From Stichopus chloronotus (taxonomy: Eukaryota; Echinodermata; Holothuroidea; Aspidochirotida; Stichopodidae): a DNA stretch of 64,000 nucleotides. How positions within the stretch are numbered: position 1 is the stretch's first letter; every line of letters starts with the position of its first letter. Both the position numbers and the translations under genes were made by a program. Where the stretch lies: assembly GCA_021234535.1 (NCBI GenBank), contig CM037840.1, positions 14,587,415 through 14,651,414 on the forward strand. The letters run 5' to 3'. A model generated the notes under the pieces. That model was given only the letters and a program-made list of their open reading frames with translations. It ran no database searches and was not told where the DNA came from. Shown here piece after piece: positions 35,124 to 64,000 of the stretch.

Positions 35124-35522
35124 CTGTTGTAGGCTTGACAGAAGAAGAAACTGCTGTGGGAACAGTAGTTTGGGTAACTGATGTGGGAGGCAGGGTGGTT
35201 GATGCCTTGGAACACAGCTCATATCTACAGCAGTACAATCTCACTTTGTAATTGGAACAAGGATGACCTTCATAGTAGAGATTCTCACAGACTAGGCCAT
35301 CATCAAGGTCACAACACACCTCCTGACCCTGGATGTCTTTAAAGAGCACATCTGGGTTTTCCACATCACGGCACTCAATGTCTTCCACATATTCACATAT
35401 CTCCATATTATCTTCCAAAATTTCGTGGATGTCTTCAATCTCGTGGGTGGCGTTTCTACTGATTGGTTGGCCTTTTTCATCATCATACCAATCCGTCCAC
35501 TCGCAAATCTTCTCACGACAAA
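35124..35522 (-). CDS. CysD domain exon 2 with short Thr/Pro tail
   Basis: An exon of 133 codons, acceptor TTATTTCTCAG, donor GTTAGC (weaker than the rest), phase 1-1. CysD spans about residues 1-103: CREKICEWTDWYDDE, the sequon NAT, MEICEYVEDIEC, VCCDLDDGLVC, HPCSNYKVRLYCCRYELC. The first half of the conserved pair EVCCD has CC, giving eleven Cys, one more than the usual ten; CysD 4 and CysD 7 share this. The tail (about 30 residues) is STTLPPTSVTQTT-like. Canonical WxxW is intact and could be C-mannosylated. Confidence 0.92.
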
Positions 35523-39485: not shown

Positions 39486-40115
39486 TATTGGTGGTTGTAC
39501 CAGGTGTTACCTCAGTGGTGACTGAGGTCCGTTGGGTATGTAGGGTGGTGGTTTGTTCCTGGGTTGGTGTTACCTCCGGTGTAGGAGGAGTTGAACCAGA
39601 GGTAGTCGTTTCCTCCTCGGACGTTGTTTCTCCTGGGCCCTGTGTGGGGGTGACCATGGTAGTTGGGGAAGAGACGGTGACCGTAGTTGTAGGCACAGCT
39701 GTCGTTGAGACGGTTGAAGGTGGCTGAGATTCAGACATGGTTGTCTCTGGGGATGCTGTAGTTTCTGGTGCGGTGGTCTCTTCTGGTGGTTCGGAGGGCA
39801 CGGTGGTCCCCTTAGGTGGTTTTGTGGATGCAGTTGTCTCTTCTGGTGGTTGAGTTGGTGTGCTGGCTGAAGAGGACATGGCTGCAGAAGTTGTCGGTGG
39901 CAAGGTGGTTAGGGTTGTTGAAACACCCACTGAGACCGACGGAGTTTGCTCAGACCCGGTGGTCACTGATTCTGATGTAGTTTCCTCTATTGGTGGTGAT
40001 GGTGTACTTGTGGATCCCTGTCTGGTGGGAGTCACACTTGTGGTGGTAGTGGTGGTTGTTGGTTCTTTAACTGCAGTGGTTGGTGATTCACTTGTAACTT
40101 CAGGGACTGCTGTAG
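39486..40115 (-). CDS. Thr/Pro/Ser-rich linker exon without CysD
   Basis: An exon of 210 codons between acceptor TTTTTCTCTTATTAG and donor GTAAGT, phase 1-1. After TAVPEVTSESP it runs through Thr clusters with acidic spacing: repeated PPEETT, PPKGTT and GPGETTSEEETT motifs, and TVTVSSPTTMVTPT. No Cys is seen within the exon. It is a mucin-type, O-glycosylated linker between CysD 1 and CysD 2. It is one of the few long-tail exons that does not start with its own CysD, so it may be the remnant of a CysD-plus-tail exon that lost the domain, or an independent linker. Confidence 0.87.
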
Positions 40116-43100
40116 CTAATAAGAGAAAAAAATGGTTTATATATGATAACAGCTTCCCAGCCTTCATTTATTACCTTTACATCAGAGAAGTAATTGGCAC
40201 CTATGGTGAACAAACGACCTCTATTAGCCTATATGCTTAAATCTAACAAAAAGTGGCCACAGGCAGGTGGGATCTTAAACCACATCTTATTTGTATAAAC
40301 TTAAGTCAGGAGAGCTGTCTATTATAAAGATGGTAGGATCTAGCACCAATTCTCGTGGGGGCCATCTGCTACACGTACATGGATATTGTCTGTATGCCTA
40401 TATATCCTAATCAGAATGGTAAATGAATGCACATAAGCCAACAGAGAATAAGCACATTAAAACAACTAGTAAATGCTAAAGAAACAGCAAAATTGCCTAT
40501 GAAATGCAACTGAAAATACAAAACAAATTAATAGGCACCAAATCACACATGGAAAGCATTTGCAAGCTCTATGCAAAAACAAAAAGGAGAAAAGACAATG
40601 TCACTGACTCTTGATCGATAGACATGTGAAGGAGAATGCTAAGTTCAGTCACTACAGGCTCACTAGGGTCACAGGGTCGGCTAGTGCTTTACTGCACACT
40701 GAAACTGATGGAACAATAGTCACAGTTGTCAAGGTACGAATTAAGCATTGTAGGCAGAATCAAAGGATGTAACATGACAGTCTTTTCATGCTCCGTTCCC
40801 ACGGTAACATATTATTTAAGTCCTCTTCCTATTCTGCGTGCCTTCTGCCGTGTTTTCAAAACAGCAGTCATGCCATTTGGGGTCTACAGGTCCACGAGGC
40901 CTCAATTCAGCTAACACAAAGACCAATGTGGTCCATGCACATGGAATGCCAATTGGGCAAGTACATGATTTAAAGTCCAAGGTTTAAGTATGCTGAACGG
41001 CTGAAGTGACTCTGGTTGACTTGCATCATGTCTAAAAATTACAAGGATCTATCTTCATTACGTTACTGTCAGATCAGATAAACAAATGGAATAATTGTAC
41101 TCCCGGTCTATACCAAACACGTATATTTAAAATAAACCAGACAGCCATAATGATCTTGCAAGTCATGCTGCAACTGAACAAGTTTGGAAAAGCAACATAT
41201 TATGTGTAAGGGGCAGAGAAATAATGCTTTGGGACTGGCATGTTTTTGATTCTCATTTTCTGATTCACTAATAAACTCACAGAAACAGAAATTTTTGCTT
41301 TCATTATGTCCTTGACATGTTCCCCAAAAACACTGCACAAAAAGAAATATTATTGAGATATTTCTGTCGAGGTTTTTCTCATAAAGCTGAAATTACACAG
41401 ATTCCTATGTTCATGCAGTTGCTGTGACAAAGCCAGAGAGGGATCTACTGCAAGTTGCAATTTGTAGCAGATTTAAGTTCAGAACACTAAGTAGAAAGTG
41501 AAAAACAGAATTACAAAACAAAAACATACACCCCAAAAAATACACACCCCAAATAAATACACACAAAGACATATAGCACTAGACAGGCAGTTTTACCTTT
41601 TACTTGGCAACAGGTGCAACTCAAAGCTTTTGTTACCAAATTTTAGTATCACATGATGACATCAACTGGAAGCTCAAGTTGAAACTGAACTCTGTCACTG
41701 TAGGTGTGACACAAGTCACAGGATATTTTTTAGGATGACTCATCAGGAACTTGACATTTACCATGGTCGTAGTTCTCAATCTTTGTCGAGCTCATGGACT
41801 ATTTCGCGATGACACGAGGGGGTGCTTTTCTGTGCACTGAGATTCCTGCGTGGATCCTAAGATAGATATTTTTTGGAGCAACCATTTCAGTAGCAATTGG
41901 TTACTATGCGGACCATCATCTGAAATCCTCACGTACTGCAGCACTTCCACAGGCCTGGAGCAAAGTGAAATTGCTTCTGTGCAGAAACAAGGCATCGGCC
42001 CACGGCCATGCATTTGCAGGCCAATTGACCCACGGTACGTATCAGAACGGCAAGCTCGCAGGACTGCGTTGGCACTTACTCGAGAGCAATCGGTTACGGT
42101 GTCTGACGTTTGATATAATCACCAGCTTGAGTTGGATGCACTTATTCTCTCACTTTCCAAGGCATCACCTACAACACCTGAACATGTATTCAGGTTATTT
42201 GGAGGACATGATACTACTCCTCTCTTTTAACCGGGACATAAATGTATGTACATGTACATCCAAACACACACAGCTCAAACTACAGACACTATCTTAAATC
42301 AATGTCAACAGGTACAGTTCTCTGCCCAAAAACACCATGGAAGAGTAAACATCGCTTACTGATTTAAACACACAAATTCTGGAAACTAAGTTGATTTTTC
42401 TGTCATTTAAAATGCACCTATCCCATTTCTGTAGAGCAACCTTCACTGTTAGGATTGACTATAGAACTCATTTTCTTTGTGGGAACAAAACTTCCAACTT
42501 AGAATAAGGAAACCAGCTGTGTGAACAGGCAGGGAGAACAATGGAGTTTACTGCTTCCTTTTAAAGTCCTTGAGACGTGCCTTTCACACAAGGCTTTAGT
42601 TACATTGGTCGTATCTAAAAGTGATAAATTTTTCTACTGTCACAACTTTGCCACTGTCAGACATGGTACAATATTAGACATCTATTGTTTCCTTTTGAAA
42701 CTTACCTGCATGCCCACAAAATGGAGACACATACAAAAGAATAGGAAACATAATTTCGAGGAACAACAAGTGAAACACAGAAAATCTTACATGCCATATA
42801 CTGGTAGTGAAAGATAGAATCATTTATTTACAAGTTTCGCTTTCATAATGCAATAATCCCCCACACATGAGTTGATGCTCCTGAACCGAGCAACAACGTA
42901 TCTTCAGAGAGGAATGTGTGCGGCTTCCATTAGAAGATACCATCCCTTGGGTCATGTAGCCAGATATCACACATAATAATGGCATGCAAGCAGCTTGATG
43001 TAGCCGTAATGATTATCTACTCCAGTGATACAACTTACCTGTGTGTCTTTGAACACAAATCACAGCAATCTGATGACGTCAAAGACAAACGACTAAAGCC

Positions 43101-43426
43101 TAAAACTTTCGACCACGATTAATTCACAATGCTGACTTAGGATGTAGTTCCTTACAGCGGTTCTACGTATTCTGTGGATCTTGAGGCAAGATGAGTTTTC
43201 GGATGCTGAGATGAGCAGTCAGATGCTGAATATGCATGGTGCTGATACCTGATCAAACGATTCACTCATTACTTGAGAGTAACACGCAGAATTTATCTGC
43301 AAATTTAATAAGTTACAGCGAACACAATCGACCAGCAATCACAGCCATAATTAATCCACCACAAGGGATTAATGAAGACAGCGATGTTCTGCTGGGGCGG
43401 AAAGGAAGACACGAGAGGAGACTTAC
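40116..43426 (-). other. Intron of about 3.3 kb
   Basis: Non-coding sequence with no convincing reading frame, RNA gene or mobile-element end. Donor-like sites near 43033 and 41596 have no matching acceptor that gives an in-frame exon. Confidence 0.55.
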
Positions 43427-43768
43427 ATGAGATTGGGGGTGTCGTGCAAGGGACAGCCACCTTCTTACAGCATTCTACTCTGATCTCGTAGTCAGAACAG
43501 TGAGTTGTGGTATTTGCATTGTTGATACACGTCAGACCCGTCTTTGTGTCACAATGTACCTCTTCTCCGGTTGAGGAATAATTCTCTTCACCTTCCACGG
43601 TTCGGCACTCTATGGCCCGTGGGTTTGTGCATACGTCGTCGTATAACTCCTCCAAGTCCTCCAACAGCTCAGTCTCGGTGAACGTTTTATCAGTTATTTC
43701 GGTGCCAGACTCTTCTTCATCACTGTGCCATTCTGAATACTCACAGACTTCTTTGTAGCAGAGAGGAC
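43427..43768 (-). CDS. CysD domain exon 1 (YxxW variant)
   Basis: An exon of 114 codons between acceptor CCTACCTCCAG and donor GTAAGT. It holds one whole CysD (Mucin2_WxxW) domain: a first Cys in LCYKEVC, the entry motif CEYSEW followed by acidic HSDEEE, a central Cys pair around DVCTNPRAIEC, then VHCDTKTGLTC, THCSDYEIRVECC, and a last Cys in AVPC, ten Cys in all. The first Trp of WxxW is Tyr here, so the usual C-mannosylation site is absent. N-glycosylation sequons occur at NYS and NTT. There is almost no Thr/Pro tail, unlike most other CysD exons here. CysD domains in mucins are compact, non-glycosylated spacers that interact non-covalently and tune gel pore size; this role is carried over from the family. 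Confidence 0.9.
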
Positions 43769-44583
43769 CTGGAGGTAGGAGAAACATCACATGACAGATG
43801 ACAATGTTCCCCCTGTACATCTCAAGTTGACCTTCATTGTCGCTCTCAGGAAGTGAGACCTTCAGCTCTCTACGGAGACTCAAAAGTCATGCATGCAGTC
43901 TTTGTGCTGGTGTGAGGGGTCGTAGAAAACCCAAAATTCAATGAACACCTGACGCTGCTTCTCCGACAAAACAACTCTCAAGTCAAATAGCACTCACACA
44001 GCCAACATGACAATTTGATCTGTGAGCTTGACAATTTGGTTGGTGGGACCTAACAATTTGGATCTGAAGATCTTTTTCCACTGACTTTAAGTGCTGATTG
44101 ATCTTTACTGTTTGAGTCCATGTCACTAGAGGACCTTCTAGCTATATGTTGCACCTCTATAATTCTCCCTGCCTTCTAATTTAGGATTTGTTACCTATCA
44201 TTGAACCTTTTCTGCAAACAAGCATCAAAGCCATTGTTGGCCACAACTTCCTTATCTACAAGCTGCCAGATAGAACTACTCGATGACAATCACAAGTTGG
44301 GTCTACTGCTTGCGATTAGAGAGGCACCACTGCACAGCCTTGGCCTGTACTGCGAGCAGCCAGTTTCTGCATCCAGTCTGAGTCAATTGAATCAGAGCAG
44401 AGAAGACGTGCAAGATAATGGCTCATTGTTCTGATCAACTAAGCACTGAAAAATATTTCATAAAAATTCATGGAAACGGCTGCATGAATTCACTGTACGT
44501 CTTGGTGGACACCGACTTACAGTGTGCAACACGATATTAAATCTTACTATTAACTACTATTAAAAGCAGAATGTCATACTTAC
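43769..44583 (-). other. Intron of about 0.8 kb
   Basis: Non-coding sequence between the 24-nt exon and the first CysD exon. Nothing else was recognised in it. Confidence 0.6.
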
Positions 44584-44607
44584 CCGTAGTAGCAACGGTA
44601 GTAATCA
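44584..44607 (-). CDS. 24-nt microexon (Thr-rich)
   Basis: The segment is bounded by acceptor TTTTTCCCTTCAG and a near-consensus donor GTAAGTATG (44583-44575). It is 24 nt, starts and ends in phase 1, and with the preceding G reads VITTVATT, the mucin-type composition of its neighbours. Too small for routine gene finders. The site strength, symmetric phase and composition agree, but only a spliced read would prove use. Confidence 0.62.
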
Positions 44608-46446
44608 CTGAAGGGAAAAAGAAAAAGTATATAATGTCATACTTTTGTTTTTTTCTGCTTGTCTTTGTTGCTATCCCTTTTTCGAGACAGCACGGGACAC
44701 GAGACAGCACTTCACAAAATTCTCAATGGCTGAATGAACGGATCACAAATTTACGTTTAATGTCTCAGTGTTCACTGATCATGACCAATTCGTTGTCCAC
44801 CTACGTCAAAACCTTGATCAAATTTGAAATCAAAATTGATGATGTCATTTCAGCGCTGCCTCAGAAGGCTTCTATATGCCAATGGCATCACCACGTACGT
44901 ATCTTCGAACATTGAGGCACACTTTGTGAACTGCTACACATACGTGAAAGACTGAGCAACACCAAATTAGTCGAGGCGAGTACTTCATTCTTTGCAAATC
45001 TAAATCTGCAACCTATATGTGAGGAATTTGGGCATTCAGGACAGTTTCTTTCCCCTTCCTCAAAAAGCGCAGGTCTTTCCAGTTAGATTGAAGACTCTCC
45101 CTGCCTGTCTGGCAATAATACAAACCCATCACGTAGCCAGTATTCATATCATCAGCAGAATATGACTCTGAAAGAGCACGCTGCAAGCAAATACTGCTTC
45201 TGTTTCACTCCAAATATCTTTGCTAGAGAAACAAAGTTTCACGAAATGGCTGACCAACATGGCTTAAACAAGCATGCTGATGGTCTATCACAAACAGAAC
45301 ATATTCTCATAATAAGGTGGTGGGTTATGTACACATGGAATGAACCATACATGAAAACTAATGAAGAAGAAAAAAAAAAGGGACCATCAACTACAGTGGA
45401 AGCTAAATGTACTTTGATATTTGATTGTGTATGAAGGGGGGAAAATGACGAATGCAAGAAAGCCAAATATACCTCTCACTGTATACCAACTACAGCGGAA
45501 ACCACAAAGAACTTAGAGAAGAATAGTCTTATGCATGAATGTGACGTAAGAAATACATACCCCTCCAGTTAGACCAAACACTAACAAAATCTAGCAAAAT
45601 TACATCGTCAATAAGTAAAAAATATCACAAGTAATGAGATCATACCTTTCTTAGTTACACCATCAAAGTTTTACATCCAAAGAGGTATCATGGTTTTCAT
45701 GTTTTTTTGTTTTTTTTTCATATTGCAGTTATTGGTAATGGATAACGTTACAGTCAGGTCAATGGTCTTAGCTATCACGTCAAATGGGTCTTTTCTTTTT
45801 CTCTGCAGGACGGTGCCAAAAGTCTCAACCACTCAAACAGCTGGATACCTCACCCAACAACTCATCTGCAACTCCAGGGTTTTAGCCACTTGAATAACAA
45901 CAGTATTGTATGCCTAACTTCTGGATCTGCAACAGTTTTCAGGTTGAAACACAAAGCAAAATTTCTCTGCGATTCTACTGGTATTTCCACTTGTGTACAG
46001 AGAGGCCACAGCGCTCCAGATTCAACTATTGACGTTCTTGCCCACATACAGCAACTAATTTCCTAGTAGAGCAATGTTTAAAGTGGTTGTTGTATTCTGA
46101 ATTGAAGACCCTTCCGGGATCATTCAAGATTTACACAATGTCGACAAATGCTAACCCCCACAACTAAGGCTCTTCCAGTAAATGTTGCATCCTACTATCG
46201 AACAGAGTACTAGAAAACTGCATTACAAGCAAATATTGCATACTCCTCAAGGGCAATATCAACTTGGTTCGATAACAGGCTCCATCTGAGCTATGGCAAT
46301 GGCTGCGGCTTGGTTAGACGGTCGTTATCAATATCGGCAAACATTCCATGCACAGTTCTTGCAGCATCTTCGAAGGATTAGTAAGTGAGAATCAATGGTG
46401 GTTACTCATATTGGTGCAGGATGAAACTGATATTAAGTTAGCATAC
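44608..46446 (-). other. Intron of about 1.8 kb
   Basis: It lies between the giant exon and the 24-nt exon. It is AT-rich non-coding sequence. I saw no coding block, transposon ends or RNA gene in it. Confidence 0.6.
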
Positions 46447-49400
46447 CTGAGCTGCTAGTAGGAGATGACGATGATGACGATGACGCGGAGAATGATGATA
46501 TTGTCGAGGGGGAAAAGGAGGTAGAAAATTCAGTAGATACATCAGACTGCCCTGCTGTCACAGTCATACTCTTACTCCTTGTCCTAGTAGAAAAGTCGGT
46601 CATACTTGATACAGAGGAAGGGGACCAAGCTGTCAGAGTGGTGCTGTCAATGCTTGGTGAAGGGTGGAAGGGGGTTGAACTGGACAAAGAGGTCAAAGGG
46701 GAAGACCCTGGGGACTGTGAGGAGGTATGCTTGCTAGAGGTAGCTGGTGATTCAGAAATACCATGTGAAAAATCTGATGTTGTCAAGGTACCATCACTTG
46801 AGAAAGAATGAGTGATAACTGTTTTTGAGGTATCTTGTGAAGTTGACATTGAGAAAGACTCTGATTCCAATGAGGAATGAGATGAGAGAATCGACTTGGA
46901 GGTAGTACTAGAGTCCTCATGTGATGACACTGTGGTAGGGCCAGACATGGACGAAGAATGGCCGAGTGATGATGATATACTTGTATGGCTAGCAAATGTT
47001 GTACCTGGTGATGGGGAAGAAGGCCCGAAAGTGGATGTCACAAGGGTGTGAGATACTGGAGAGGTTTCTCTGTCTGTGGAGTGTGTCATGGCACTGTGAC
47101 TTGGTGACAGAGAAGTCATTGATGAGGACAATTCTGAACCTGTGTGAGACACTGGAGTAGCATCCCCATGTGATGTGTGCAAAGGACTTGTACCCATAGC
47201 AGATGTCAGACTTGAGGAAGATTGCGAGACCAGTGAAGATGCTGTGAAAGTGGAAGATAATGAGCTTGACTCCTCAGACAAAGGAGAACTTGATACTGAT
47301 GGTGAGGAAGCAGTGGAGGGCAATACACTTGGTTCAGACAGTGGAGAAGATTTAAATTCTTGAGAAGTGATCATTCCACTAGTATAACTGGGCTCATGGG
47401 AAACTGAAGTGTGGGACTTGGATGCTAGAGATGAACTGAAAGATTGAGAAGTGTGTTTTGACTTTTCAGGTTGAGAAGATGACAAACTTCCTTTCGGTGA
47501 TGTGTGCTGTGTGTCACTATCAGACGTTTCACTTGATTCAAGTGACGGAGAAGTACTACTGACTGACGTTTCTGACATTGATGACAGTCCGGGAGTGGAC
47601 TCTGGACTAGATACACTCACTGAAGATGTCATCTGTGACATAGCTGTGGCACTAACACTTGTAGAGGATGTCTCAGAAATGAAGATCGATTCTGCACTTG
47701 TAGTTGATTCAGAGGGTGATTCTACTGATGTTGTTGTTTTGCTGGTAGCTGATTTTGCTGGAGGTTCTGTTGTCGAAGGACCTGAGGTTTTAATTGCAGT
47801 TGGAGCAGATGTAACAGTCAGAACTGTGGGAGATGATGGTGGAGGTGAACTTCTAACAGGGCCAGTGAATGTTTCAGTTGCTATTCTAGGTTTTGTTGTA
47901 GAACCAGTGCCTTCCTCACTTGTTAATGTTACTGGAGCGAGTGTAACACCAGTAGATCCAGGTGTGGTATCAACACTTCCTGTCACTGTGGTGGCAGATG
48001 TGAGGCATTCGGTATCTGTTGGTGTTGTTATTTCTGTCGTTTCTGCACAAGATGGTGTGGTTGTTATAGTTGGAGATGTAACATCTGTACCAGATGGTGT
48101 TGCAGTGGAATGTTTTGTACTTATTGTTTCAACAGATGTCCCCTTAGTGGTAACTACTGGTGCAGATGTTTCTTTACCAGATGTAGGTGTTGCTGTTCCT
48201 GTAGTAGCATATTGATTTGTACTTACAACTGAACCTGTGTGTGAAGTTGTGCTCTCTTCTGAAGTCATCGTTTTGAGATTCTTTGTCGGAGTAGTTGAGG
48301 GACCATATGTGACTGGAGTCCCAGTATCAGAAACTTCTGTTACTTCTGGTGTACTGGTAGGAGAGGTTGTTTCTGTTATCAATGGACCTGTGGTTTTAAT
48401 TGCAGTTCCAGCAGATGTGACAGTGGATTCAAAATGTGCAGTTGTTTTCAATACATTTGGAGTAGCACTACCAGTAGGGATACTTAATTCTACAGGTTTG
48501 GTAACAACACTTCCTGTCACTGCAGGGGCAGATGTGGGGCATTCAGTATCTGACGGTGTAGTTTCTTCTATCATAGAGGGTGTGGTTTGTATATGTTCAG
48601 ATGTTAAGTCTGTACCAGATGGTGTTGTAGCTAAATTATTGGTAGGTTTTGTTTCAATGGATATCATGTCAGTCGTAACTACTGGTGCAGATGTTTCTTT
48701 ACCAGATGAAGGTGTTGCTGTTCCTGTAGTAGAATATTCAGCTGTACTTATGACTGGACCTGTTGTTCTTGAAATTTCAGTCGGAGTTGTTTTGACACTT
48801 ACTGAAGGAGATGATGTAACTGGAACTGTTGCGGTACTGATCGATGCTCTAGGTGTGGTTGTGATCTGTAAGGAAGAGGTAAGTTCAACGGTGGGAGGGG
48901 GTGAGTGAGAAATTGTACTTCCTTCTGAAGGCATTGTTTTGAGATTCTCTGTTGTAGTAGTTGATGGACCATATGTGACTGGAGACCCAGTAACAGGCAC
49001 TACTGTTACTTCTGGTGTACTGGTAGGAGATGTTGCACTTGTTTTACTAGACACAGAGGTCTCTGACAATGATGTTCCAGATACTGATGTTGCAGACATT
49101 GATGTGTGAGACACAGATGTTCCAGGTACTGATGCTTTGGACTTTGATGCTCCAGATACTGATGTCTCAGGCAGTGATGAATCTAATATTGATGTTACTG
49201 ACTCTGATGTCACAGTCATTGATGTTGCAGACATTGATGAAAGAGGTGATGAGGGTACTTCAGAGACTGATGTTTGTGGCACCAGTGTTTCAGGCATCGA
49301 TGCTTCAGTTACACCTGTTTCGGAAAGTGAAGTTTTCGATGATGATGTTCCAGGCAAAGATGTTAAAGGAGTTGAAGGACCAGATATCAATGTACTCGAT

Positions 49401-52400
49401 TTTGATGGTTTCGATAATGATGTCTCGGACAATGTCGTTCCAGGTTCAGATATTTCAGAAACTGATGGACCAGATATTGGTTTCATAGGTGCGGATGTAC
49501 CTGATCCTAATGTTTCATGTGATGTTCCAGGCAATGAAGATTCAGGACCAGATGGAGCAGATATTGACGGACTTGACAATAAAGATTTTGACAATGCGGT
49601 TTCAGGCAATGTTGTACCAGACATAGAAGTCAATGATATGGAGCTTTCAGGACCTGAGGTACCAGACAACCTTGTACTTGGCACTGATGGTTTGGACACT
49701 GTTCCTTCAGATGATGTTGTCTGCGACACAGCAGTTACAGAAGGAGATGTTTCAACACTTGATGGACCAGACACTGATGGTTTGGACACTGCTGCTTCAG
49801 GCAATGTTGTACCAGACATAGAAGTCAATGAAATGGAGCTTTCAGGACCTGAGGTACCAGACAACCTTGTACTTGGCACTGATGGTTTGGACACTGTTGC
49901 CTCAGAGGATGTTGTCTGTGACGCAGCAGTTACAGAAGGAGATGTTACAACACTTGATGGACCAGACACTGCTGGTTTGGACTCTGCTGCTTCAGGCAAT
50001 GTTGTACCAGACATAGAAGTCAATGATATGGAGCTTTCAGGACCTGAGGTACCAGACAACCTTGTACTTGGCACTGATGGTTTGGACACTGTTCCTTCAG
50101 ATGATGTTGTCTGCGACACAGCAGTTACAGAAGGAGATGTTTCAACACTTGATGGACCAGACACTGATGGTTTGGACACTGCTGCTTCAGGCAATGTTGT
50201 ACCAGACATAGAAGTCAATGAAATGGAGCTTTCAGGACCTGAGGTACCAGACAACCTTGTACTTGGCACTGATGGTTTGGACACTGTTGCCTCAGAGGAT
50301 GTTGTCTGTGATGCAGCAGTTACAGAAGGAGATGTTCCAACACTTGATGGACCAGACACTGATGGTTTGGACACTGCTGCTTCAGGCAATGTTGTACCAG
50401 ACATAGAAGTCAATGAAATGGAGCTTTCAGGACCTGAGGAACCAGACAACCTTGTACTTGGTACTGATGGTTTGGACACCGTTTCTTCAGAGGATGTTGT
50501 CTGCAACACAGCAGTTACAGGAGATGTTCCAACACTTGATGGACCAGAAACTGATGGTTTGGACACTGCTGCTTCAGGCAATGTTGTACCAGACATAGAA
50601 GTCAATGAAATGGAGCTTTCAGGACCTGAGGAACCAGACAAGCTCGTACTTGGTACTGATGGTTTGGACACCGTTTCTTCAGAGGATGTTGTCTGCAACA
50701 CAGCAGTTACAGGAGATGTTCCAACACTTGATGGACCAGACACTGATGGTTTGGACATTGCTGTTTCCGGCAATGTTGTACCAGATATAGAAGTCAATGA
50801 AATGGAGCTTTCAAGACCTGAGGTACCAGACAACCTTGTACTTGGCACTGATGGTTTGGACACCGTTGCTTCAGAGGATGTTATCTCTGACACAGAAGTT
50901 ACAGAAGATGTTTCAACACTTGATGGACCAGACACTGCTGGTTTGGATACAGCTGTTTCCGGCAAAGATGTTAAAGGAGTTGAAGGACCAGATATCAATG
51001 TACTCGATTTTGATGGTTTCGATAATGATGTCTCGGACAAAGTCGTTCCAGGTTCAGATATTTCAGAAACTGATGGACCAGATATTGGTTTCATAGGTGC
51101 GGATGTACCTGATCCTAATGTTTCATGTGATGTTCCAGGCAATGAAGATTCAGGACCAGATGCAGCAGATATTGACGGACTTGACAATAAAGATTTTGAC
51201 AATGCGGTTTCAGGCAATGTTGTACCAGACATAGAAGTCAATGATATGGAGCTTTCAGGACCTGAGGAACCAGACAACCTTGTACTTGGCACTGATGGTT
51301 TGGACACTGTTGCTTCAGAGGATGTTGTCTGCGACACAGCAGTTACAGAAGGAGATGTTTCAACACTTGATGGACCAGACACTGCTGGTTTGGACATTGT
51401 TGTTTCCGGCAATGTTGAACCAGACATAGAAGTCAATGAAATGGAGCTTTCAAGACCTGAGGTACCAGACAACCTTGTACTTGGTACTGATGGTTTGGAG
51501 ACCGTTGCTTCAGCGGATGTTGTCTGTGACACAGCTGTTACAGGTGATGTTCCAACACTTGATGGACCAGCCACTGCTGGTTTGGACACGGCTGTTTCCG
51601 GCAATGTTGTACCAGACATAGAAGTCAATGAAATGGAGGTTTCAGGACCTGAGGTACCAGACAAACTTGTACTTGGTACTGATGGTTTGGACACTGTTGC
51701 TTCAGAGGATGTTGTCTGAGACACAGCAGTTACAGAAGGAGATGTTTCAACACTTGATGGACCAGACACTGATGGTTTGGACATTGCTGTTTTCGGCAAT
51801 GTTGTACCAGATATAGAAGTCAATGAAATGGAGCTTTCAAGACCTGAGGTACCAGACAACCTTGTACTTGGCACTGATGGTTTGGACACCGTTGCTTCAG
51901 AGGATGTTATCTCTGACACAGAAGTTACAGAAGATGTTTCAACACTTGATGGACCAGACACTGCTGGTTTGGATACAGCTGTTTCCGGCAATGTTGTACC
52001 AGACACAGAAGTCGATGAAATGGAGCTTTCAGGACCTGAGGTACCAGACAAAGTTGTACTTGGTACTGATGGTTTGGACACCGTTGCTTCAGAGGATGTT
52101 ATCTCTGACACAGAAGTTACAGAAGGAGATGTTTCAACACTTGATGGACCAGACACTGCTGGTTTGGATACAGCTGTTTCTGACAATGTTGTGCCAGACA
52201 TAGAAGTCAATGAAATGGAGCTTTCAAGACCTGAGGTACCAGACAAACTTGTACTTGGTACTGATGGTTTGGACACCGTTGCTTCAGAGGATGTTATCTC
52301 TGACACAGAAGTTACAGAAGGAGATGTTTCAACACTTGATGGACCAGACACTGATGGTTTGGATACAGCTGTTTCTGGCAATGTTGTGCCAGACATAGAA

Positions 52401-55400
52401 ATCAATGAAATGGAGCTTTCAAGACCTGAGGTACCAGACAACCTTGTACTTGGCACTGACGGTTTGGACACTGTTGCTTCAGAGGATGTTATCTGTGACA
52501 CAGAAGTTACAGAAGGAGATGTTCCAACACTTGATGGACCAGACACTACTGGTTTGGACACTGCTGTTTCCGGCAATGTTGTACCAGACATAGAAGTCAA
52601 TGAAATGGAGCTTTCAAGACCTGAGGTACCAGACAACCTTGTACTTGGTACTGATGGTCTCGACACTGTTGCTTCAGAGGATGTTGTCTGTGACACAGCA
52701 GTTACAGGTGATTTTCCAACACTTGATGGACCAGACACTGCTGGTTTGGACACTGCTGTTTCCGACAATATTGTACCAGAGATAGAAGTCAACGAAATGG
52801 AGCTTTCAGGACCTGAGGTACCAGAGAACCTTGTACTTGGCACTGATGGTTTGGACACTGCTGCCTCAGAGGATGTTGTCTGTGACACAGCAGTTACAGG
52901 AGGAGATGCAACACTTGATGGACCAGATTCTGATGGTTTGGACACTGTGGGTTCAGGAAATGTTGCTTCAGGCACTAAAGTTAATGACTCAGATTTTTCA
53001 GGAACTGATGTACTAGCCATTGAGGTACTGGGTGCAGATACTTCAGATGTGAATGTTTCAGGCAAACGTGATCCAGACAATGAAGTTACAGAGACAGATG
53101 TTTCAGAACCAGATATCATAGATGTTGATGTGCTCGGCACTGATGATTTGGACACTGATGATTTTGGCATTGTTCTTTCAGATGACAGAGTTAAAGAACC
53201 AGATGCTTCAGGACTTGATGTCATAGTTATTGATGGACTGGGAACTGATGGTTTTGAAATTGACGGTGCCGGGGCAGCAGTTAAAGACTCAGATGATGTG
53301 GGACCAGATGTACCAGATACTGATGTACCAAAATCTGATGATTTGGAAACCGATGTTTCAGGGAATACTGTTCCAGACACAGCGGTTAAAGAGATAGATG
53401 TTCCAGGTACTGATGCTCCAGACAACAGTGCACTGATTCCTGATGTTTCTGATACTGAAGTTTTAGGTGACGAGGGTCCAGATTCAAATGATTTCGGCTC
53501 TGATGTACCAATCTTTGTCATTTCTGATTTTGATATTTTTGACACTGAAGTTTCAGAAATTGACGTACCAGATATTGATGATTTCATGACTGGCGTTAAA
53601 GACTCAGATATTATGGGACCATATGTACCAGGTACTGATGGTTTGGAACCTGAAACTCCAGTAAATGTGGATTTGGACACAGAGGCTGAAGAGGTAGATG
53701 TTTCCGGCTCTGATATTCCAGATGTGAATGTCTTGGATATTGTTTCAGCTGATGAAAGTCCAGGGACAGATGATGGAGATAGCACGGAGGAATGTGATAT
53801 TAAAGTCTGAGTTGCTGATGTCTTTGAAACTGATGACTTCAAAACTGATGTTTCAGGTAACGAAGTTCCAGGAACTAAGGTTTCAGACACAACTGTCTCA
53901 GGGACTAAACTACTAGATTTTGATGTCTGAGACATTGATATTTTGGACAATTCTACTTCAGATACTGATGATTCAGAAACTGTTGGTTTGGCCACTGATA
54001 TCTCAGAAGCCAATGGTTTGGATACTAACATTTCAGGTGATGATGACTCAGGTACTAATGCTCCATATGATGAAGTTAAGGAGACAGCTGTTTGAGATAA
54101 TGATGTACCAGACACTGATGTCTCTTGTTCTGATGAAGATTCAGACACTGATGTTCTAGTGACTGATGTTTCAGATACAGATGTTCCAGATGTGTAGGAT
54201 GGCCCAGGAATGGATACTTTACCAGTGGCAGATTCTGAGGGAGTATAATCTTCTGTCATCTCTGAAGGGCTTGGCATACTCACAGATGTTGAACTTTGCT
54301 CTTCTGGTGCAGATGTACCTGATTTTGATGGTCCTAATTTAGAAGATGACTCAGATGAAACAGTACCACTCTGTCCACCCTCTGATGTTGTGAGATCCTC
54401 ATGTGTCTCTGAAGAACTTGAGACACTCAGAGATATACTTGTCTCTTGAGATCCAGGAGTACTTGTCACTGATGTTTTCAGTGTAGATGGTTCTTCTGAG
54501 GATAATGGACTAGTTGTACTCACTGAAGCTGATGTTCTTGTTGAACTAATAGGTGAAAGAGATGTATCTGAAATTTCGACACTTGTAGTTGTTTCAGAGG
54601 GTAATTCCACTGATGTTGTTGTTTTGCTGGTAGCTGATTTTGCTGGGAATTCTGTTGTCAATGGACCTGAGGTTTTAATTGCAGTTGGAGCAGATGTGAC
54701 AGTCGGAACTGTGGGGAATGATGGTGGAAGTGAACTTCTAACAGGGCCAGTGAAAGTTTCAGTTACTATTCTAGGTGTTGTTGTAGAACCTGTGCCTTCC
54801 TCACTTGGTAAAGTTACTGGGGTGAGTGTAACACCAGTGGATCCAGGTGTTGTTGTTGCTACTTCTGTCGTTTCTGCACAAGATGATGTCGTCAGTATAG
54901 TTTCAGATGTTACATCTGCACCAGATGGTGTTGTAGTTAAATCTTTTGTACTTGTTTCAACAGATGTCCCCTGAGAGGTAACTACTGGTCCAGATGTTTC
55001 TTTACCAGATGTAGGTGTTGCTGTTCCTGTTGGAGTAGTTGAGGGACCATATGTAACTGTAGTCTCAGTACTAGAAACTACTGTTACTTCTAGTGTACTG
55101 GTAGGAGAGGTTGTTTCTGTTGTCAATGGACCTGAGGTTTTAACTGCAGTTGGAGCAGATGTAACAGTCAGAACTGTGGGAGATGATGGTGGAGGTGAAC
55201 TTCTAACGGGGCCAGTGGAAGTTTCAGTTGCTATTCTAGGTTTTGTTGTAGAACCAGTGCCTTCCTCACTTGTTAATGTTACTGGAGTGAGTGTAACACC
55301 AGTAGATCCAGGTGTGGTATCAACACTTCCTGCCACTGTGGTGGCAGATGTGAGGCATTCGGTATCTGTTGGTGTTGTTATTTCTGTCGTTTCTGCACAA

Positions 55401-58400
55401 GATGGTGTGGTTGTTATAGTTGGAGATGTAACATCTGTACCAGATGGTGTTGCAGTGGAATGTTTTGTACTTATTGTTTCAACAGATGTCCCCTTAGTGG
55501 TAACTCCTGGTGTAGATGTTTCTTTACCAGATGAAGGTGTTGCTGTTCCTGTAGTAGAATATTCAGCTGTACTTATGACTGGACCTGTTGTTCTTGAAAT
55601 TTCAGTCGGAGTTGTTTTGACACTTACTGAAGGAGATGATGTAACTGGAACTGTTGCGGTACTGATCGATGCTCTAGGTGTGGTTGTGATCTGTAAGGAA
55701 GAGGTAAGTTCAACGGTGGAAGGGGGTGAGTGAGAAATTGTACTTCCTTCTGAAGGCATTGTTTTGAGATTCTCTGTTGTAGTAGTTGATGGACCATATG
55801 TGACTGGAGACCCAGTAACAGGCACTACTGTTACTTCTGGTGTACTGGTAGGAGATGTTGCACTTATTTTACTAGACACAGAGGTCTCTGACAATGATGT
55901 TCCAGATACTGATGTTGCAGACATTGATGTGTGAGACACAGATGTTCCAGGTACTGATGCTTTGGACTTTGATGCTCCAGATACTGATGTCTCAGGCAGT
56001 GATGAATCTAATATTGATGTTACTGACTCTGATGTCACAGTCATTGATGTTGCAGACATTGATGAAAGAGGTGATGAGGGTACTTCAGAGACTGATGTTT
56101 GTGGCACCAGTGTTTCAGGCATCGATGCTTCAGTTACACCTGTTTCGGAAAGTGAAGTTTTCGATGATGATGTTCCAGGCAAAGATGTTAAAGGAGTTGA
56201 AGGACCAGATATCAATGTACTCGATTTTGATGGTTTCGATAATGATGTCTCGGACAATGTCGTTCCAGGTTCAGATATTTCAGAAACTGATGGACCAGAT
56301 ATTGGTTTCATAGGTGCGGATGTACCTGATCCTAATGTTTCATGTGATGTTCCAGGCAATGAAGATTCAGGACCAGATGCAGCAGATATTGACGGACTTG
56401 ACAATAAAGATTTTGACAATGCGGTTTCAGGCAATGTTGTACCAGACATAGAAGTCAATGATATGGAGCTTTCAGGACCTGAGGTACCAGACAACCTTGT
56501 ACTTGGCACTGATGGTTTGGACACTGTTCCTTCAGATGATGTTGTCTGCGACACAGCAGTTACAGAAGGAGATGTTTCAACACTTGATGGACCAGACACT
56601 GATGGTTTGGACACTGCTGCTTCAGGCAATGTTGTACCAGACATAGAAGTCAATGAAATGGAGCTTTCAGGACCTGAGGTACCAGACAACCTTGTACTTG
56701 GCACTGATGGTTTGGACACTGTTGCCTCAGAGGATGTTGTCTGTGACGCAGCAGTTACAGAAGGAGATGTTACAACACTTGATGGACCAGACACTGCTGG
56801 TTTGGACTCTGCTGCTTCAGGCAATGTTGTACCAGACATAGAAGTCAATGATATGGAGCTTTCAGGACCTGAGGTACCAGACAACCTTGTACTTGGCACT
56901 GATGGTTTGGACACTGTTCCTTCAGATGATGTTGTCTGCGACACAGCAGTTACAGAAGGAGATGTTTCAACACTTGATGGACCAGACACTGATGGTTTGG
57001 ACACTGCTGCTTCAGGCAATGTTGTACCAGACATAGAAGTCAATGAAATGGAGCTTTCAGGACCTGAGGTACCAGACAACCTTGTACTTGGCACTGATGG
57101 TTTGGACACTGTTGCCTCAGAGGACGTTGTCTGTGACGCAGCAGTTACAGAAGGAGATGTTCCAACACTTGATGGACCAGACACTGATGGTTTGGACACT
57201 GCTGCTTCAGGCAATGTTGTACCAGACATAGAAGTCAATGAAATGGAGCTTTCAGGACCTGAGGAACCAGACAACCTTGTACTTGGTACTGATGGTTTGG
57301 ACACCGTTTCTTCAGAGGATGTTGTCTGCAACACAGCAGTTACAGGAGATGTTCCAACACTTGATGGACCAGACACTGATGGTTTGGACACTGCTGCTTC
57401 AGGCAATGTTGTACCAGACATAGAAGTCAATGGAATGGAGCTTTCAGGACCTGAGGAACCAGACAAGCTCGTACTTGGTACTGATGGTTTGGACACCGTT
57501 TCTTCAGAGGATGTTGTCTGCAACACAGCAGTTACAGGAGACGTTCCAACACTTGATGGACCAGACACTGATGTTTTGGACACTGCTGCTTCAGGCAATG
57601 TTGTACCAGACATAGAAGTCAATGAAATTGAGCTTTCAGGACCTGAGGTACCAGACAAAGTTGTACTTGGTACTAATGGTTTGGACACTGTTGCTTCAGA
57701 GGATGTTGTCTGTGACACAGCAGCTACAGGAGATGTTCCAACACTTGATGGACCAGATGCTGCTGGTTGGGACACTGATGATTCAGGCAATGTTGTACCA
57801 GACATAGAAGTCAATGATATGGAGCTTTCAGGACCTGAGGTACCAGACAACCTTGTACTAGGTACTGATGGTTTGGACACTGTTGCTTCAGAGGATGTTG
57901 TCTGCGACGCAGCAGTTACAGGAGATGTTCCAACACTTGATGGACCAGATGCTGCTGGTTGGGACACTGATGATTCAGGCAATGTTGTACCAGACATAGA
58001 AGTCAATGAAATGGAGCTTTCAGGACCTGAGGTACCAGACAACCTTGTACTTGGTACTGATGGTTTGGACACTGTTGCTTCAGAGGATGTTGTCTGTGAC
58101 ACAGCAGTTACAGAAGAAAATGTTCCAACACTTGATGGACCAGACACTGCTGGTTTGGACACTGCAGTTTCAGGCAATGTTGTACCAGATATAGAAGTCA
58201 ATGAAATAGAGCTTTCAGGACCTGAGGTACCAGACAACCTTGTACTTGGTACTGATGGTTTGGACACTGTTGCTTCAGAGGATGTTGTCTGTGACACAGC
58301 AGTTACAGAAGGAGATGTTCCAACACTTGATGGACCAGACACTGATGGTTTGGACACTGCAGTTCCAGGCAATGTTGTACCAGACATAGAAGTCAATGAA

Positions 58401-61400
58401 ATGGAGCTTTCAAGACCTGAGGTACCAGACAAACTTGTACTTGGTACTGATGGTTCAGACACTATTGCTTCAGAGGATGTTGTCTGTGACACAGCAGTTA
58501 CAGAAGGAGATGTTCCAACACTTGATGGACCTGACACTGACGGTTTGGACACTGCTGTATCAGAAAATATACCAGACATAGAAGTCAATGAAATGGAGCT
58601 TTTAGGACCTGAGGTACCAGACAACCTTGTACTTGGCACTGATGGTTCAGACACTATTGCTTGAGAGGATGTTGTCTGTGACACAGCAGTTACAGAAGGA
58701 GATGTTTCAACACTTGATGGACCAGACACTGATGGTTTGGACACTGCTGTTTCCAGCAATGTTGTACCAGACATAGAAGTCAATGAAATGGAGCTTTCAG
58801 GACCTGAGGTACCAGACAACCTTGTACTTGGCACTGATGGTTTGGACACTGTTGCCTCAGAGGATGTTGTCTGTGACGCAGCAGTTACAGAAGGAGATGT
58901 TACAACACTTGATGGACCAGACACTGCTGGTTTGGACACTGCTGCTTCAGGCAATGTTGTACCAGACATAGAAGTCAATGAAATGGAGCTTTCACGACCT
59001 GAGGAATCAGACAACCTTGTACTTGGTACTGATGGTTTGGACACCGTTTCTTCAGAGGATGTTGTCTGCAACACAGCAGTTACAGGAGATGTTCCCACAC
59101 TTGATGGACCAGACACTGCTGGTTTGGACACTGCAGTTTCCGGCAATGTTGTACCAGACATAGAAGTCAATGAAATGGAGCTTTCAGGACCTGAGGTACC
59201 AGACAACCTTGTACTTGGTACTGATGGTTTGGACACTGTTGCTTCAGAGGATGTTGTCTGTGACACAGCAGTTACAGAAGGAGATGTTCCAACACTTGAT
59301 GGACCAGACACTGATGGTTTGGACACTGCTGCTTCAGGCAATGTTGTACCAGACATAGAAGTCAATGAAATGGAGCTTTCAGGACCTGAGGTACCAGACA
59401 ACCTTGTACTTGGTACTGATGGTTTGGACACTGTTGCTTCAGAGGATGTTGTCTGTGACACAGCAGTTACAGAAGGAGATGTTCCAACACTTGATGGACC
59501 AGACACTGATGGTTTGGACACTGCTGCTTCAGGCAATGTTGTACCAGACATAGAAGTGAATGAAATGGAGCTTTCAGGACCTGAGGTACCAGACAAACTT
59601 ATACTTGGTACTGATGGTTTGGACACCATTGCTTCAGAGGATGTTGTCTGTGATACAGCAGTTACAGGAGATGTTCCAACACTTGATGGACCAGACACTG
59701 ATGGTTTGGACACTGATGATTCAGGCAATGTTGTACCAGACATTGAAGTCAATGATATGGAGCTTTCAAGACCTGAGGTACCAGACAACCTTGTACTTGG
59801 TACTGATGGTTTGGACACTGTTGCTTCAGAGGATGTTGTCTGTGACACAGCAGTTACAGGAGATGTTCCCACACTTGATGGACCAGGCACTGATGGTTTG
59901 GACACTGATGATTCAGGCAATGTTGTACCAGACATAGAAGTCAATGAAATGGAGCTTTCAGGACCTGTGCTACCAGACCTAGTTCTTGGTACTGATGGTT
60001 TGGACACTGTTGCTTCAGAGGATGTTGTCTGCGACACAGCAGTTACAGGAGATGTTCCAACACTTGATGGACCAGACACTGCTGGTTTGGACACTGCAGT
60101 TTCCGGCAATGTTGTACCAGAGATAGAAGTCAATGAAATGGAGCTTTCAGGACCTGAGGTACCAGACAAGCTCGTACTTGGTATTGATGGTTTGGACACT
60201 GTTGCTTCAGAGGATGTTGTCTGTGACACAGCACTTACAGGAGATGTTCCAACACTTGATGGACCTGACACTGATGGTTTGGACACTGTTGTATCAGAAA
60301 ATATACCAGACATAGAAGTCAATGAAATGGAGCTTTTAGGGCCTGAGGTACCAGACAACCTTGTACTTGGCACTGATGGTTCAGACACTATTTCTTCAGA
60401 GGATGTTGTCTGTGACACAGCAGTTACAGAAGGAGATGTTCCAACACTTGATGGACCAGATACTGACGGTTTGGAAACTTCTGTTTCAGGAAATGTTGCT
60501 CCAGGCACTGAAGTTAATGACTGAGATTTTTCAGGAACTGATGTACTAGCCATTGAGGTAATAGGTGTCGATACTTCTGATGTGAATGTTTCAGGCAAAT
60601 GTGATCCAGACGATGAAGTCACAGACACAGATGTTTTAGGACCAGATATCATAGATGTTGATGTGCTTAGCACTGATGATCTGGACTCTGAAGACTTTGG
60701 CATTGTTCTTTCAGATGACAGAGTTAAAGAATCAAATGCTTCAGGACTTGACTCAATAGTTATTGATGAACTGGGAACTGATGGTTTGGAAATTGACGTT
60801 GCCGGGGCCGGAGTTAATGTCGTTCCAGATCCAGATACTTCAGAAACTGATGGACCAGATATTGGTTTCATAGCTGCTGACGTACCTGATCCTAAAGTTT
60901 CATGTGATGTTCCAGGCAATGAAGATTCAGGAACAGATGCACCAGATATTGATGTTCCAGATATTGATGTTTCAGGCAGTGATGAATCTAATATTGATGT
61001 TACTGACTCTGATGTCCCAGTACTTGATGATACAGACACTGATGAAAGAAGTGATGAGGGTACGTCGGAGACTGAAGTTTGTGGCACTGTCGTTTTAGGC
61101 AGTGATCCTTCAGTTACACCTGTTTCAGAAACTGAAGGTTTTGACAATGATTTTCTGGGCAAAGATGTTACGGGACTTGGTGTACTAGACAATGACGTAC
61201 TTAAGATTGCTGACTTCGATACCGAAGAATGAGACATTGATGTTCCAGATATTGATGTTACGGACTCTGTTACAGTCAGTGATGAAGGTGTTGACACTTG
61301 AAGAGCCGAAGTTTCAGATGATTCAGGCACAACTGTTTTGGAGAATGATGTCACATGACCTGACGTGCCAGACACTGATGTATGGGAGACTGATTGTTTG

Positions 61401-64000
61401 GTCAAAGTTGACTCAGTCAACATTGTAGCAGACCCTGCTGTAAAAGACGATGATGATCTTTCACCTAATTTAGCAGATGTTGATTTACTAGACACTGATG
61501 TCTCAGACAATTTTGTTCCAGAGATGGAAGTCCAAGACTCTGATATGTCACTTACTGATGTCCCAGATATAACTGCTGATGTGGCAGATGTTGATGCTAA
61601 TGGCTGCGATGGAGATACTGAGACTTTAGGCACAGATGTGTCACTAACAGATGCACCAGCACTTGATATTCCAGACAATGTTGTCTCAGGCAAAGCCGTT
61701 CCAACTTCAGATGTTCTGGAAGCAGAGGTGTCACGGTTTGGAGGTACTGCTGTTTCCGGAGCAACTGAGGTTGAAGGTACTGACTTCTCAGGTTTTGACG
61801 ATAATGACCCCACTACATCAGACTTTGATGTACCAGATATTGATGTAATGGATTTTGACAATTTGGGCACTGATATTTCAGACACAGAAGTTAATGACTC
61901 AGATATTTCAGAACCTGATGTACCAGATTTTGATGTACTTGACACTAATGGTTTGGACAGTGAAGTTTGAGGAACTGTTGTTGCAGGTGTTGATATCACA
62001 GGTTTTGATGGTAACGACTCTGTTTCAGATGCTGATGGACCAGATATTGATGCAATGGATTCTGACAGTTTGGGCACAGATGTTACAGACAGAGAAGTTA
62101 CTGACTCAGATTTTTCAGAATATGTAGCTGAAATACTTGTATCGCTACCATCACTGTAGGGTGATGATTCAGTTGTTGAACCAATTCTTGTCAATGAAGT
62201 CTCATCACTTACTGAAGATCTTGTAACAAATTTGGAAGTGCTTGTTGCTGTCAGAGAAGTAGGTGTAGCTGAAAGCGAAGTGTGAGAAGTAGTTGAGTTC
62301 TCTGTGAATTTACTATCAGCTGGAGCACTGGTTGAGGTGTCTTCAGTCCCTGATGTACTTGTGCTAGTGACTTGCTGACTGGGCGTCTTTTGTGGCACAA
62401 AGTCAGTTGTTATTTGGTAACCCTCTGTAGTGTAAGAAATGGGGGGTGCAGATGTCTGATACAAATGCGGTGATTCTGAGGGTTGGGATTCTGTGTGGAG
62501 TACTCTCTCTGGTGTTGGAGTAATCTCCAAAGTTGAAAAGGGTAATGAAGAAGTGCCTACAGTGGGAGCAGGGGAAGTGGTGATACTTACTGCTGGCAAG
62601 GTTTTATCCATAAATCCTTTGGTAGGTCCTGTGGATAGAGGAGCTGATGTCAATGTAGAACCAACTTTTGTTGAAGATGTCCTTGTGGGATAGATACTAG
62701 CAGTTGCTGTTACTGTTGGTTCATTGGAGGAAGTCAATAATGTTGGATGTAATTCTTCTGTTGTAGACGTAGTAGGTCTACCTGTAGATGCAGAACTTAA
62801 TGATGTGATATGAGAAGATACAGTTGACTTACCAGGTGTGGCTGTGGAAAAACTCCCCACTGTTGTTGTACTTTCACTTGGCAATGTAGTTGGTACATGT
62901 GTGGTTGGCTGATGTGTCACTGGAGTGGAAATTGGTGTTGAAGTTGAAGGTGTGCTGGTAGGTATTGAGGCTATAGGTAAAGAGGTTGGTGCTGCTGACG
63001 ATGATGTGACACTGCTGAATCCAGTAGGAGATAATGTAGTGGAAACAGTTTCTGAGATACTAGGACCATACTTACTAGTGGCAGGCTCAGATGGTAATGT
63101 CACCGGGGTAGATGGGACAAAAGTGGTAGCTGTGCTTACTTTCAACGATGAAGTTGTTTGTGAGGATACAGATGCTTCCATAACTGTTGTCACAGATGGC
63201 CAAGTGGATCCAGTAACAGAGACTGGACTTGTGCTTGAAATCAATGTTGTATGTTTCTGTGAAGTGTATGGTGTACTTGAATATGTACTTTGTTCATGTG
63301 AAACAGGAGTAACTGGCACTGAAACTGAAGTTTCAGGCTTGGTGATGACGGACACCGACGTTTCGGGAACTGATGTACCTGTTGGAGAAGTTTCAGACAC
63401 TAATGGTCCAGATGAAGGTGTCACAAAGACAGAGGTTTCAGTCTCGGGTATTCTGGATAATGTCGTTTTGGGACCAGAGGTTTCAGAAATTGTTACTTCC
63501 GTCTTTGATGTTGCAATTGATGAAGATTCCGACACTGATGTTTCAGATACAGATGTCCTAGATGATGTTGTTTCGGATCGTAAAGTTTCAGATACTGATG
63601 TTCCAGATACAGATGTTCCAGATACAGATGACACAGGCTCTGACGTTTCCACTACAGATGTCACAGTCACTAATATTTCAGGGGAAAATGTCTCAGGTGC
63701 TGATGTTTCAGGTTGAGATGTGCTACCTAGTGACGTTTCAAATACAGATGTTCCAGGCACTGATGTTGATGGTGCAGATGTACCAGGTAATGCTGTTTCA
63801 GATACGGTTGTTCCAAGCACTGATGACAAAGGTGCAGATGTACCAGAGAATGAAGTTTCAGAGACTGATGTTCCAGATACAGATGACTCAGGCTCTGACG
63901 TTCCAACTACAGATGTCACAGATACTGATGTACCACTCCTTGATATTTCAGAAACTGATGTCACAGACACGGATGATTCAGGTCCACCTGTGCCAGACGG
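46447..64000 (-). CDS. Giant Ser/Thr/Pro-rich mucin exon, 5' end beyond the window
   Basis: This is an uninterrupted reading frame of 5,851 codons that is still open at base 64000, so the true exon is longer than 17.55 kb. It ends at donor GTATGC (46446-46441) after TCA G, phase 1. In order from the 5' side: degenerate SGTSVSETSV-like decapeptides (about 64.0-63.3 kb); non-repetitive Ser/Thr/Pro sequence (63.3-62.1); more decapeptides (62.1-60.5); about 21 copies of a 64/65-residue repeat (60.5-56.4); a linker module and a Thr-rich module (56.4-54.5); decapeptides (54.5-53.0); about 16 more repeats (53.0-49.6); the same two modules again (49.6-47.7); and a Ser-rich end (47.7-46.4). I see only six Cys, all in the Thr-rich modules. 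Expected role: densely O-glycosylated mucin rod. No globular domain was recognised. It matches mucin PTS exons by composition, not by homology to a named family. Confidence 0.93.
47720..49030 (-). repeat. Thr-rich module with Cys, downstream copies
   Basis: These are sub-units homologous to 54550-55860. One carries SDTECPTSAPAV with a single Cys (its SCAETTE partner segment reads SMIEETT), and the other carries SCAETTEI with DTECLTSATT. The block precedes the Ser-rich end of the giant exon. Confidence 0.8.
48700..50770 (-). repeat. Internal segmental duplication, downstream copy
   Basis: This is the partner of 55525-57595. Similarity falls off near 50770, where the array B units become different, and near 48700, where the Thr-rich modules diverge to a looser similarity. 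The few differences I saw are single bases, which points to a recent duplication or ongoing gene conversion. Confidence 0.88.
49600..52960 (-). repeat. Array B: about 16 copies of the same 64/65-residue repeat
   Basis: The unit family is that of array A; I counted 16 GPSSV cores. Several units here carry the private variant SVTSVSEITSSE, which array A lacks, so part of this array expanded locally. The last six units match the last six of array A in order and variant type, because they fall in the 6,825-bp-offset duplication. A linker-module fragment interrupts the array at about 50961-51240. Confidence 0.92.
50961..51240 (-). repeat. Third, truncated copy of the linker module inside array B
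   Basis: About 280 bp matches 49353-49630 and 56178-56455. It encodes SLLSSPSISAASGPESSLPG, a stretch with SHETLGSGTSAPMKPISGP, and SKPSSTL-like sequence ending TSLP. Here TSLP runs straight into PETAVSKPAVSG of the 65-residue repeat instead of GTSSSKTSLSE as in the two full copies. This is a recombination junction at the shared TSLP/TTLP sequence. Confidence 0.85.
54550..55860 (-). repeat. Thr-rich module with Cys, upstream copies
   Basis: Non-65-mer Thr/Ser/Pro sequence is built of sub-units of about 0.5 kb, including STPEVTVVPVTGSPVTYGPS, TTGTATPSSGKETS and a Cys-bearing segment with SCAETTEI and DTECLTSATT. A second sub-unit carries one Cys only (SSCAETTEVATT). It is related to 47720-49030. 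These are among the few Cys sites in the giant exon and could cross-link or cap chains. Confidence 0.8.
55525..57595 (-). repeat. Internal segmental duplication, upstream copy
   Basis: About 2.07 kb is nearly identical to 48700-50770 at a constant offset of 6,825 bp, for example 55546 against 48721, 56178 against 49353, and 57238 against 50413. The offset is a multiple of three, so the frame is kept. The copy carries the last array A repeats, the linker module and the start of the Thr-rich module. Boundaries are estimated by eye. Confidence 0.88.
56430..60500 (-). repeat. Array A: about 21 copies of a 64/65-residue Ser-rich repeat
   Basis: The 195-bp unit (192 bp when one residue is missing) reads roughly TTLPETAVSKPSVSGPSSVG followed by TSPSVTAVSQTTSSEATVSK and PSVPSTRLSGTSGPESSIS plus LTSMSG. 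I counted 21 GPSSV cores. Units vary by single residues such as PETAV/PEAAV/PESSV and VGT/VET/VVT. Two units carry IFSDT in place of TTLPET. Length polymorphism by unequal exchange is expected for such arrays. Confidence 0.92.

Follow-up and report, generated by a model that had tools for sequence, protein, structure and literature searches.

A minus-strand reading frame at this locus of the sea cucumber Stichopus chloronotus stays open up to the edge of the available DNA, raising the question of whether so long a frame is a single coding exon and to which kind of protein it belongs. The window analysed here is the whole 64,000-nucleotide stretch, taken from contig CM037840.1. Its minus-strand frame 0 contains no internal stop from position 64000 down to a TAA at 46433–46435, which corresponds to 5,855 sense codons. 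The proposed exon occupies 46447–64000 on the minus strand (17,554 bp, or 5,851 complete codons and a single further base), and its 5′ end lies beyond the window edge. At its other end, splice-site inspection identified a donor-like CAG|GTATGC (junction 46447/46446), a putative phase-1 splice donor at 46445–46446. The in-frame TAA is located just inside the putative intron and would act as the stop codon if the donor were unused. A preliminary description of at least 5,851 open codons reaching the window edge agrees with the number counted up to the donor.

To evaluate chance, we ran 60 simulations for each of Markov orders 1 and 2 on the composition of the whole exon, counting any of the six frames. 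The longest open run was 240 codons at order 1 and 334 codons at order 2, and a chance open frame is therefore rejected, as the preliminary description had held. The remaining two minus frames contain 13–38 stops in every one of 12 segments (segment size at most 1,500 bp). The parts of the frame outside its repeat arrays, of 745, 820 and 1,133 codons, are also free of stops, at lengths for which simulations reach at most 249 codons. Meanwhile, we notice that the plus strand shows open runs of 869, 696, 909 and 619 codons over the arrays (49110–60524), in register with the repeats. These runs look like a shadow of the repeats, and this plus-strand frame has 2–10 stops per segment over the non-array parts. 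A second gene on the plus strand was rejected, because its open runs follow the repeat register.

In the translated giant frame, Ser makes up 28.6% of the residues, Thr 17.7% and Pro 9.6%. Within the window it holds 2,709 Ser and Thr codons together, six Cys, three Trp and 1 N-glycosylation sequon. Across 290 sampled windows of 60 aa, the Ser plus Thr fraction never falls below 0.32, compared with 0.15 in one frame of the flanking DNA (40300–44900, stops removed, a stretch holding the first of the CysD exons described below). A Pfam scan of both halves of the giant frame returned 0 families. Based on the Ser/Thr/Pro make-up throughout and the lack of a Pfam match, the giant frame is a mucin PTS domain. 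On the other hand, four other PTS frames measured in the window are dominated by Thr (30–45% Thr and 4–22% Ser, CysD parts included), and the giant exon is dominated by Ser (29% Ser, 18% Thr).

Since Ser and Thr remain high in every sampled window, the frame has no intron-like gap, and this even composition argues against hidden introns. The strong donor motif MAG|GTRAGT is absent from the giant frame, which was searched for it. Weaker splice-like sites do occur, including CAG|GTACGT after 60886, GTAAGT after 63076 and 62833, and several pyrimidine-rich AGs; two stricter acceptor-like sites lie at 55704 and 48879. Because of these contexts, small in-frame introns may exist within the giant frame. 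The span had been described as a single exon; its coding nature is borne out, and we infer its one-exon status from the composition together with the splice sites.

Two other types of giant protein were considered. Titin is built of Ig and FN3 domains, and MUC16 contains SEA domains. A titin-like identity was rejected, as neither Ig nor FN3 was found and both halves of the giant frame matched 0 Pfam families. A tethered mucin of the MUC16 type was rejected on the same scan, which found no SEA domain in the sequence up to 64000. In a homologue search with positions 46436–47440, none of the 7,979 scored candidates reached E 0.001. An Rfam scan gave 0 matches, and among open-licence papers none on this gene was found by title.

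The neighbouring DNA connects the giant frame with a known class of proteins. At coordinates lower than the giant exon and on the same strand, the Pfam family PF13330 (CysD) was found in 10 of 10 CysD ORFs. With predicted splice sites, these correspond to CysD exon 1 (43427–43768), exon 2 with a short PTS (35124–35522), exon 3 with a short PTS (33563–33973), exon 4 with a PTS array of 141-bp units (30878–32821), exon 5 with a Thr-rich PTS (26783–28639), exons 6, 7 and 8, each with a PTS (25570–26172, 23026–24477 and 22272–22814), exon 9 with a short PTS (19272–19676) and exon 10 (15521–15835). Between them, a candidate PTS exon with phase 1 on both sides is located at 39486–40109, as judged from its splice sites, and its ORF has no Pfam domain. 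A 24-bp micro-exon (phase-1/phase-1, encoding VITTVATT) is predicted at 44584–44607. All of these features lie on the minus strand, as do two further PTS open frames, a Thr/Pro-rich one at 4820–7108 and one built of PTST repeats with recurring Cys that extends to the left edge (3–3248). Neither has a Pfam domain, and both probably continue the mucin gene.

The alignment of the 10 CysD domains revealed 16 invariant columns, 8 of which are Cys. When the CysD of exon 3 was compared with solved structures, it matched 9 distinct sequences, all named Mucin-5B, Mucin-5AC or Mucin-2, and Mucin-5B is the PDB match assigned to this exon. Public sequences P0001–P0007 are the best matches to CysD exons 1, 2, 3 and 10, at 50–92% identity; for part of exon 2, public sequences match at 86% and 92%, and a third at 68%. 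Two named relatives appear among 10 proteins, one from the hemichordate Ptychodera flava (annotated ‘mucin-2-like’, P0008) and the other from the tunicate Styela clava.

The splice phases suggest how these parts are joined. An AG in phase 1 directly precedes the domain in 10 of 10 CysD exons, the donor of the giant exon is also phase 1, and the frame is preserved when the giant exon is joined directly with CysD exon 1. The donor phase of the CysD exons is assumed, the GT listing having covered phase 1 only. Two features of gel-forming mucins are found in the window, namely a Ser/Thr/Pro-rich PTS of tandem repeats and PF13330 CysD in 10 ORFs. Because of the PTS composition, the CysD exons on the same strand and the matching phase 1, the span is very probably one very long PTS exon of a secreted, CysD-bearing animal mucin of the gel-forming type.

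In this gene, transcription would proceed from right to left; the giant exon, by its phase-1 splice, would lead into a series of CysD exons (at least 10) whose PTS stretches are shorter and rich in Thr, and we infer that all of these exons belong to one transcript. Mucins carry dense O-glycans on a Ser/Thr rod that binds water, and their CysD domains mediate weak cross-links. The Ser and Thr codons here would be largely O-glycosylated, giving a stiff, water-binding rod, and the CysD domains would provide weak cross-links within the mucus gel. Extra CysD domains are described as making mucus stiffer (PMC6861317). VWD, VWC and cystine-knot domains were sought with Pfam in 17 scanned proteins (the two halves of the giant frame, one piece of it a second time, and 14 ORFs located elsewhere), and none was detected. 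VWD and C-terminal domains may lie outside the window, with the N-terminal VWD to the right of 64000 and the gene possibly running off the left edge.

The giant exon itself is built of repeats. Tandem Repeats Finder detected a 195-bp unit in three minus-strand arrays, at 56411–60546 (array A, 21.4 copies, 92% matches), 51194–52965 (array B, 9.1 copies) and 49586–50965 (array C, 7.1 copies). We aligned 35 of 37 anchored units, leaving out two array ends (spacings of 1,223 and 149 codons) and setting the last aligned unit to 65 codons by construction. These 35 units of 63–65 residues comprise 31 distinct proteins and 32 distinct DNA sequences. A larger block has been copied about 6.8 kb away, with 48493–53425 and 55309–60169 showing 89% identity over a 4,957-bp alignment. 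At its core, on the minus strand, 48675–50943 and 55500–57768 are 6,825 bp (2,275 codons) apart and differ at 30 of 2,269 positions; 21 of the mismatches fall in the last 243 bp of the core and 9 in 48675–50700. These arrays and copied blocks support the earlier proposal that the exon was built through internal duplication.

The repeats keep the reading frame. In strong repeat alignments (at least 85% identity and at least 300 bp; overlapping, hence not independent), 70 of 70 begin and finish in frame, and 85 of 111,080 aligned columns are out of frame. Multiples of three account for 376 of the 406 gaps, and the other 30 regain the frame within about 15 bases. The exon grew through tandem duplication of the 195-bp unit together with duplication of larger blocks spaced about 6.8 kb from one another, the added lengths being multiples of three bases.

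The residues behave differently from the frame. Among the 35 units, pN/pS is 0.67 over all columns and 0.66 over ungapped columns, and no unit contains a stop. Over ungapped columns, four control frames give 0.91–1.13, and the plus-strand frame in register gives 0.65 with 2 stops, so pN/pS gives no indication of which strand is coding. The minimum changes, 70 nonsynonymous and 40 synonymous, are indistinguishable from neutral (P=0.22), and the neutral probability of zero stops in 35 units is 0.03. Between the near-identical blocks, 20 codons change the residue and 9 are silent. From the unit pN/pS, the minimum-change counts and the block differences, residue constraint is judged to be weak; the reading frame, by contrast, has been preserved. 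It had been stated that the frame must have been kept by selection; the 70 in-frame alignments uphold this for the frame only, and the weak residue constraint does not extend it to the sequence encoded. For the arrays, that wording is too strong, because copying alone keeps the frame open when the unit lacks stops and its length is divisible by three. Better evidence of selection comes from the frame-keeping indels and the stop-free non-array parts.

The same property of the arrays raises the idea that the open frame is no coding exon and arose only because satellite repeats here happen to lack stops. The plus-strand shadow, open for 619–909 codons in the arrays with a pN/pS so close to that of the sense frame, would fit this idea, as would the neutral minimum changes. 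However, the non-array parts stay open for up to 1,133 codons against the simulated maximum of 249, the shadow frame is interrupted there by stops, mucin composition holds throughout, and CysD exons in a fitting phase follow downstream. We consider a satellite origin extremely unlikely. Another concern applies to length alone and is compatible with a genuine mucin exon: the 2.3-kb blocks might represent one locus assembled twice, or the arrays might have been expanded by the assembly. The scarcity of differences between the blocks, particularly the 9 in 48675–50700, is consistent with such inflation, and repeats of this kind assemble poorly, as the gaps and missing exons described for chicken MUC2 illustrate (PMC3549977). 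The copies do differ, however, and identity drops beyond the core, to 89% in the 4,957-bp alignment. The frame is also kept throughout, and the exon would exceed 10 kb even with 6.8 kb removed. An inflated length is accordingly rather unlikely.

A further explanation posits two neighbouring mucin genes: a Ser-rich one, with the giant frame as its last exon and the TAA at 46433 as its end, and a CysD mucin gene beside it. The in-frame TAA only 11 bases past the exon end fits such a gene, and the Ser-dominated giant exon next to four Thr-dominated PTS frames could mean that two genes are present. A possible ATTAAA signal is located at 44761. Against this, the donor is good and its phase is acceptable to all 10 CysD exons, and between 46432 and 43780, ahead of the first CysD exon, the minus strand carries no AATAAA, though it has the one ATTAAA. 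No obvious first exon for a second gene appears among ATG frames of 20 codons or more in the same interval, which were inspected without a signal-peptide predictor. We regard separate genes as quite unlikely, and one CysD-bearing mucin gene remains the preferred explanation.

With the giant exon assigned to such a mucin, its size and layout can be compared with known cases. Human MUC12, MUC4 and MUC16 likewise have large coding exons built of repeats. As described in a 2026 preprint (PMC13345508), the repeats of all canonical mucins sit in one large exon, a MUC4 allele measures 27,843 bp, predicted MUC12 proteins reach up to 23,080 aa, and in some humans no coding exon known to its authors is larger than the central exon of MUC12. 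The preliminary description had placed the present exon as a rival of the largest known, which holds loosely; the exon is large but no record, because some human mucin exons, such as the central exon of MUC12, are larger (PMC13345508). The same preprint counts MUC12, MUC4 and MUC16 as tethered mucins, whereas the halves of the giant frame have no Pfam match.

Vertebrate MUC5AC, MUC5B and MUC2 resemble the present gene in having PTS tandem repeats with CysD (PF13330) between PTS stretches. Human MUC5AC and MUC5B are reported to possess large central repeat exons, and the variable Cys-domain copies of MUC5AC lie inside its central exon (PMC10983947), whereas CysD domains occupy separate exons here. 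In chicken MUC2, PTS repeats of 69 residues form blocks with CysD between them and are described as spread across exons 32–45 (PMC3549977), in contrast to one giant exon here. The dominance of Ser in the giant exon is also unlike the vertebrate gel-forming mucins as compared.

Among invertebrate CysD proteins, the present gene resembles the Ptychodera mucin-2-like protein and, by published description only, Oikosin 1 of the tunicate Oikopleura, which carries 13 CysD domains (PMC6861317). Ci-GFM1 is described as a tunicate gel-forming mucin (PMC6109156). The Ptychodera protein P0008 (191 aa) matches 9 of the 10 CysD domains in the window at 28–38% identity. No vertebrate gel-forming mucin is known to place a giant PTS exon ahead of separate CysD exons. 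It is possible, though less likely than not, that this Ser-rich PTS exon before at least 10 separate CysDs, perhaps well over 20 kb long, ranks among the largest invertebrate coding exons.

Genome assemblies often contain only part of the repeat exons of mucins, as described for chicken MUC2 (PMC3549977) and for human MUC2 and MUC6 (PMC6269512). In the present exon, the structure of units, blocks and flanks is legible. It illustrates growth in length by in-frame duplication of units and blocks, with weak constraint on residues and the frame kept. The locus adds one case to the knowledge of mucins and does not change the picture.

Finally, we notice two variations in Cys content. In the frame at 3–3248, the motif TELCSTxETC recurs with a 306-bp period and there are 23 Cys in 1,082 codons; Cys residues of this kind could serve as cross-linking sites in a mucin rod. 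CysD exon 10 lacks the first Cys that is present in the nine other CysD exons, as seen in the alignment; its best public matches, P0006 and P0007 (69% and 51% identity), also have SASxC at that position.
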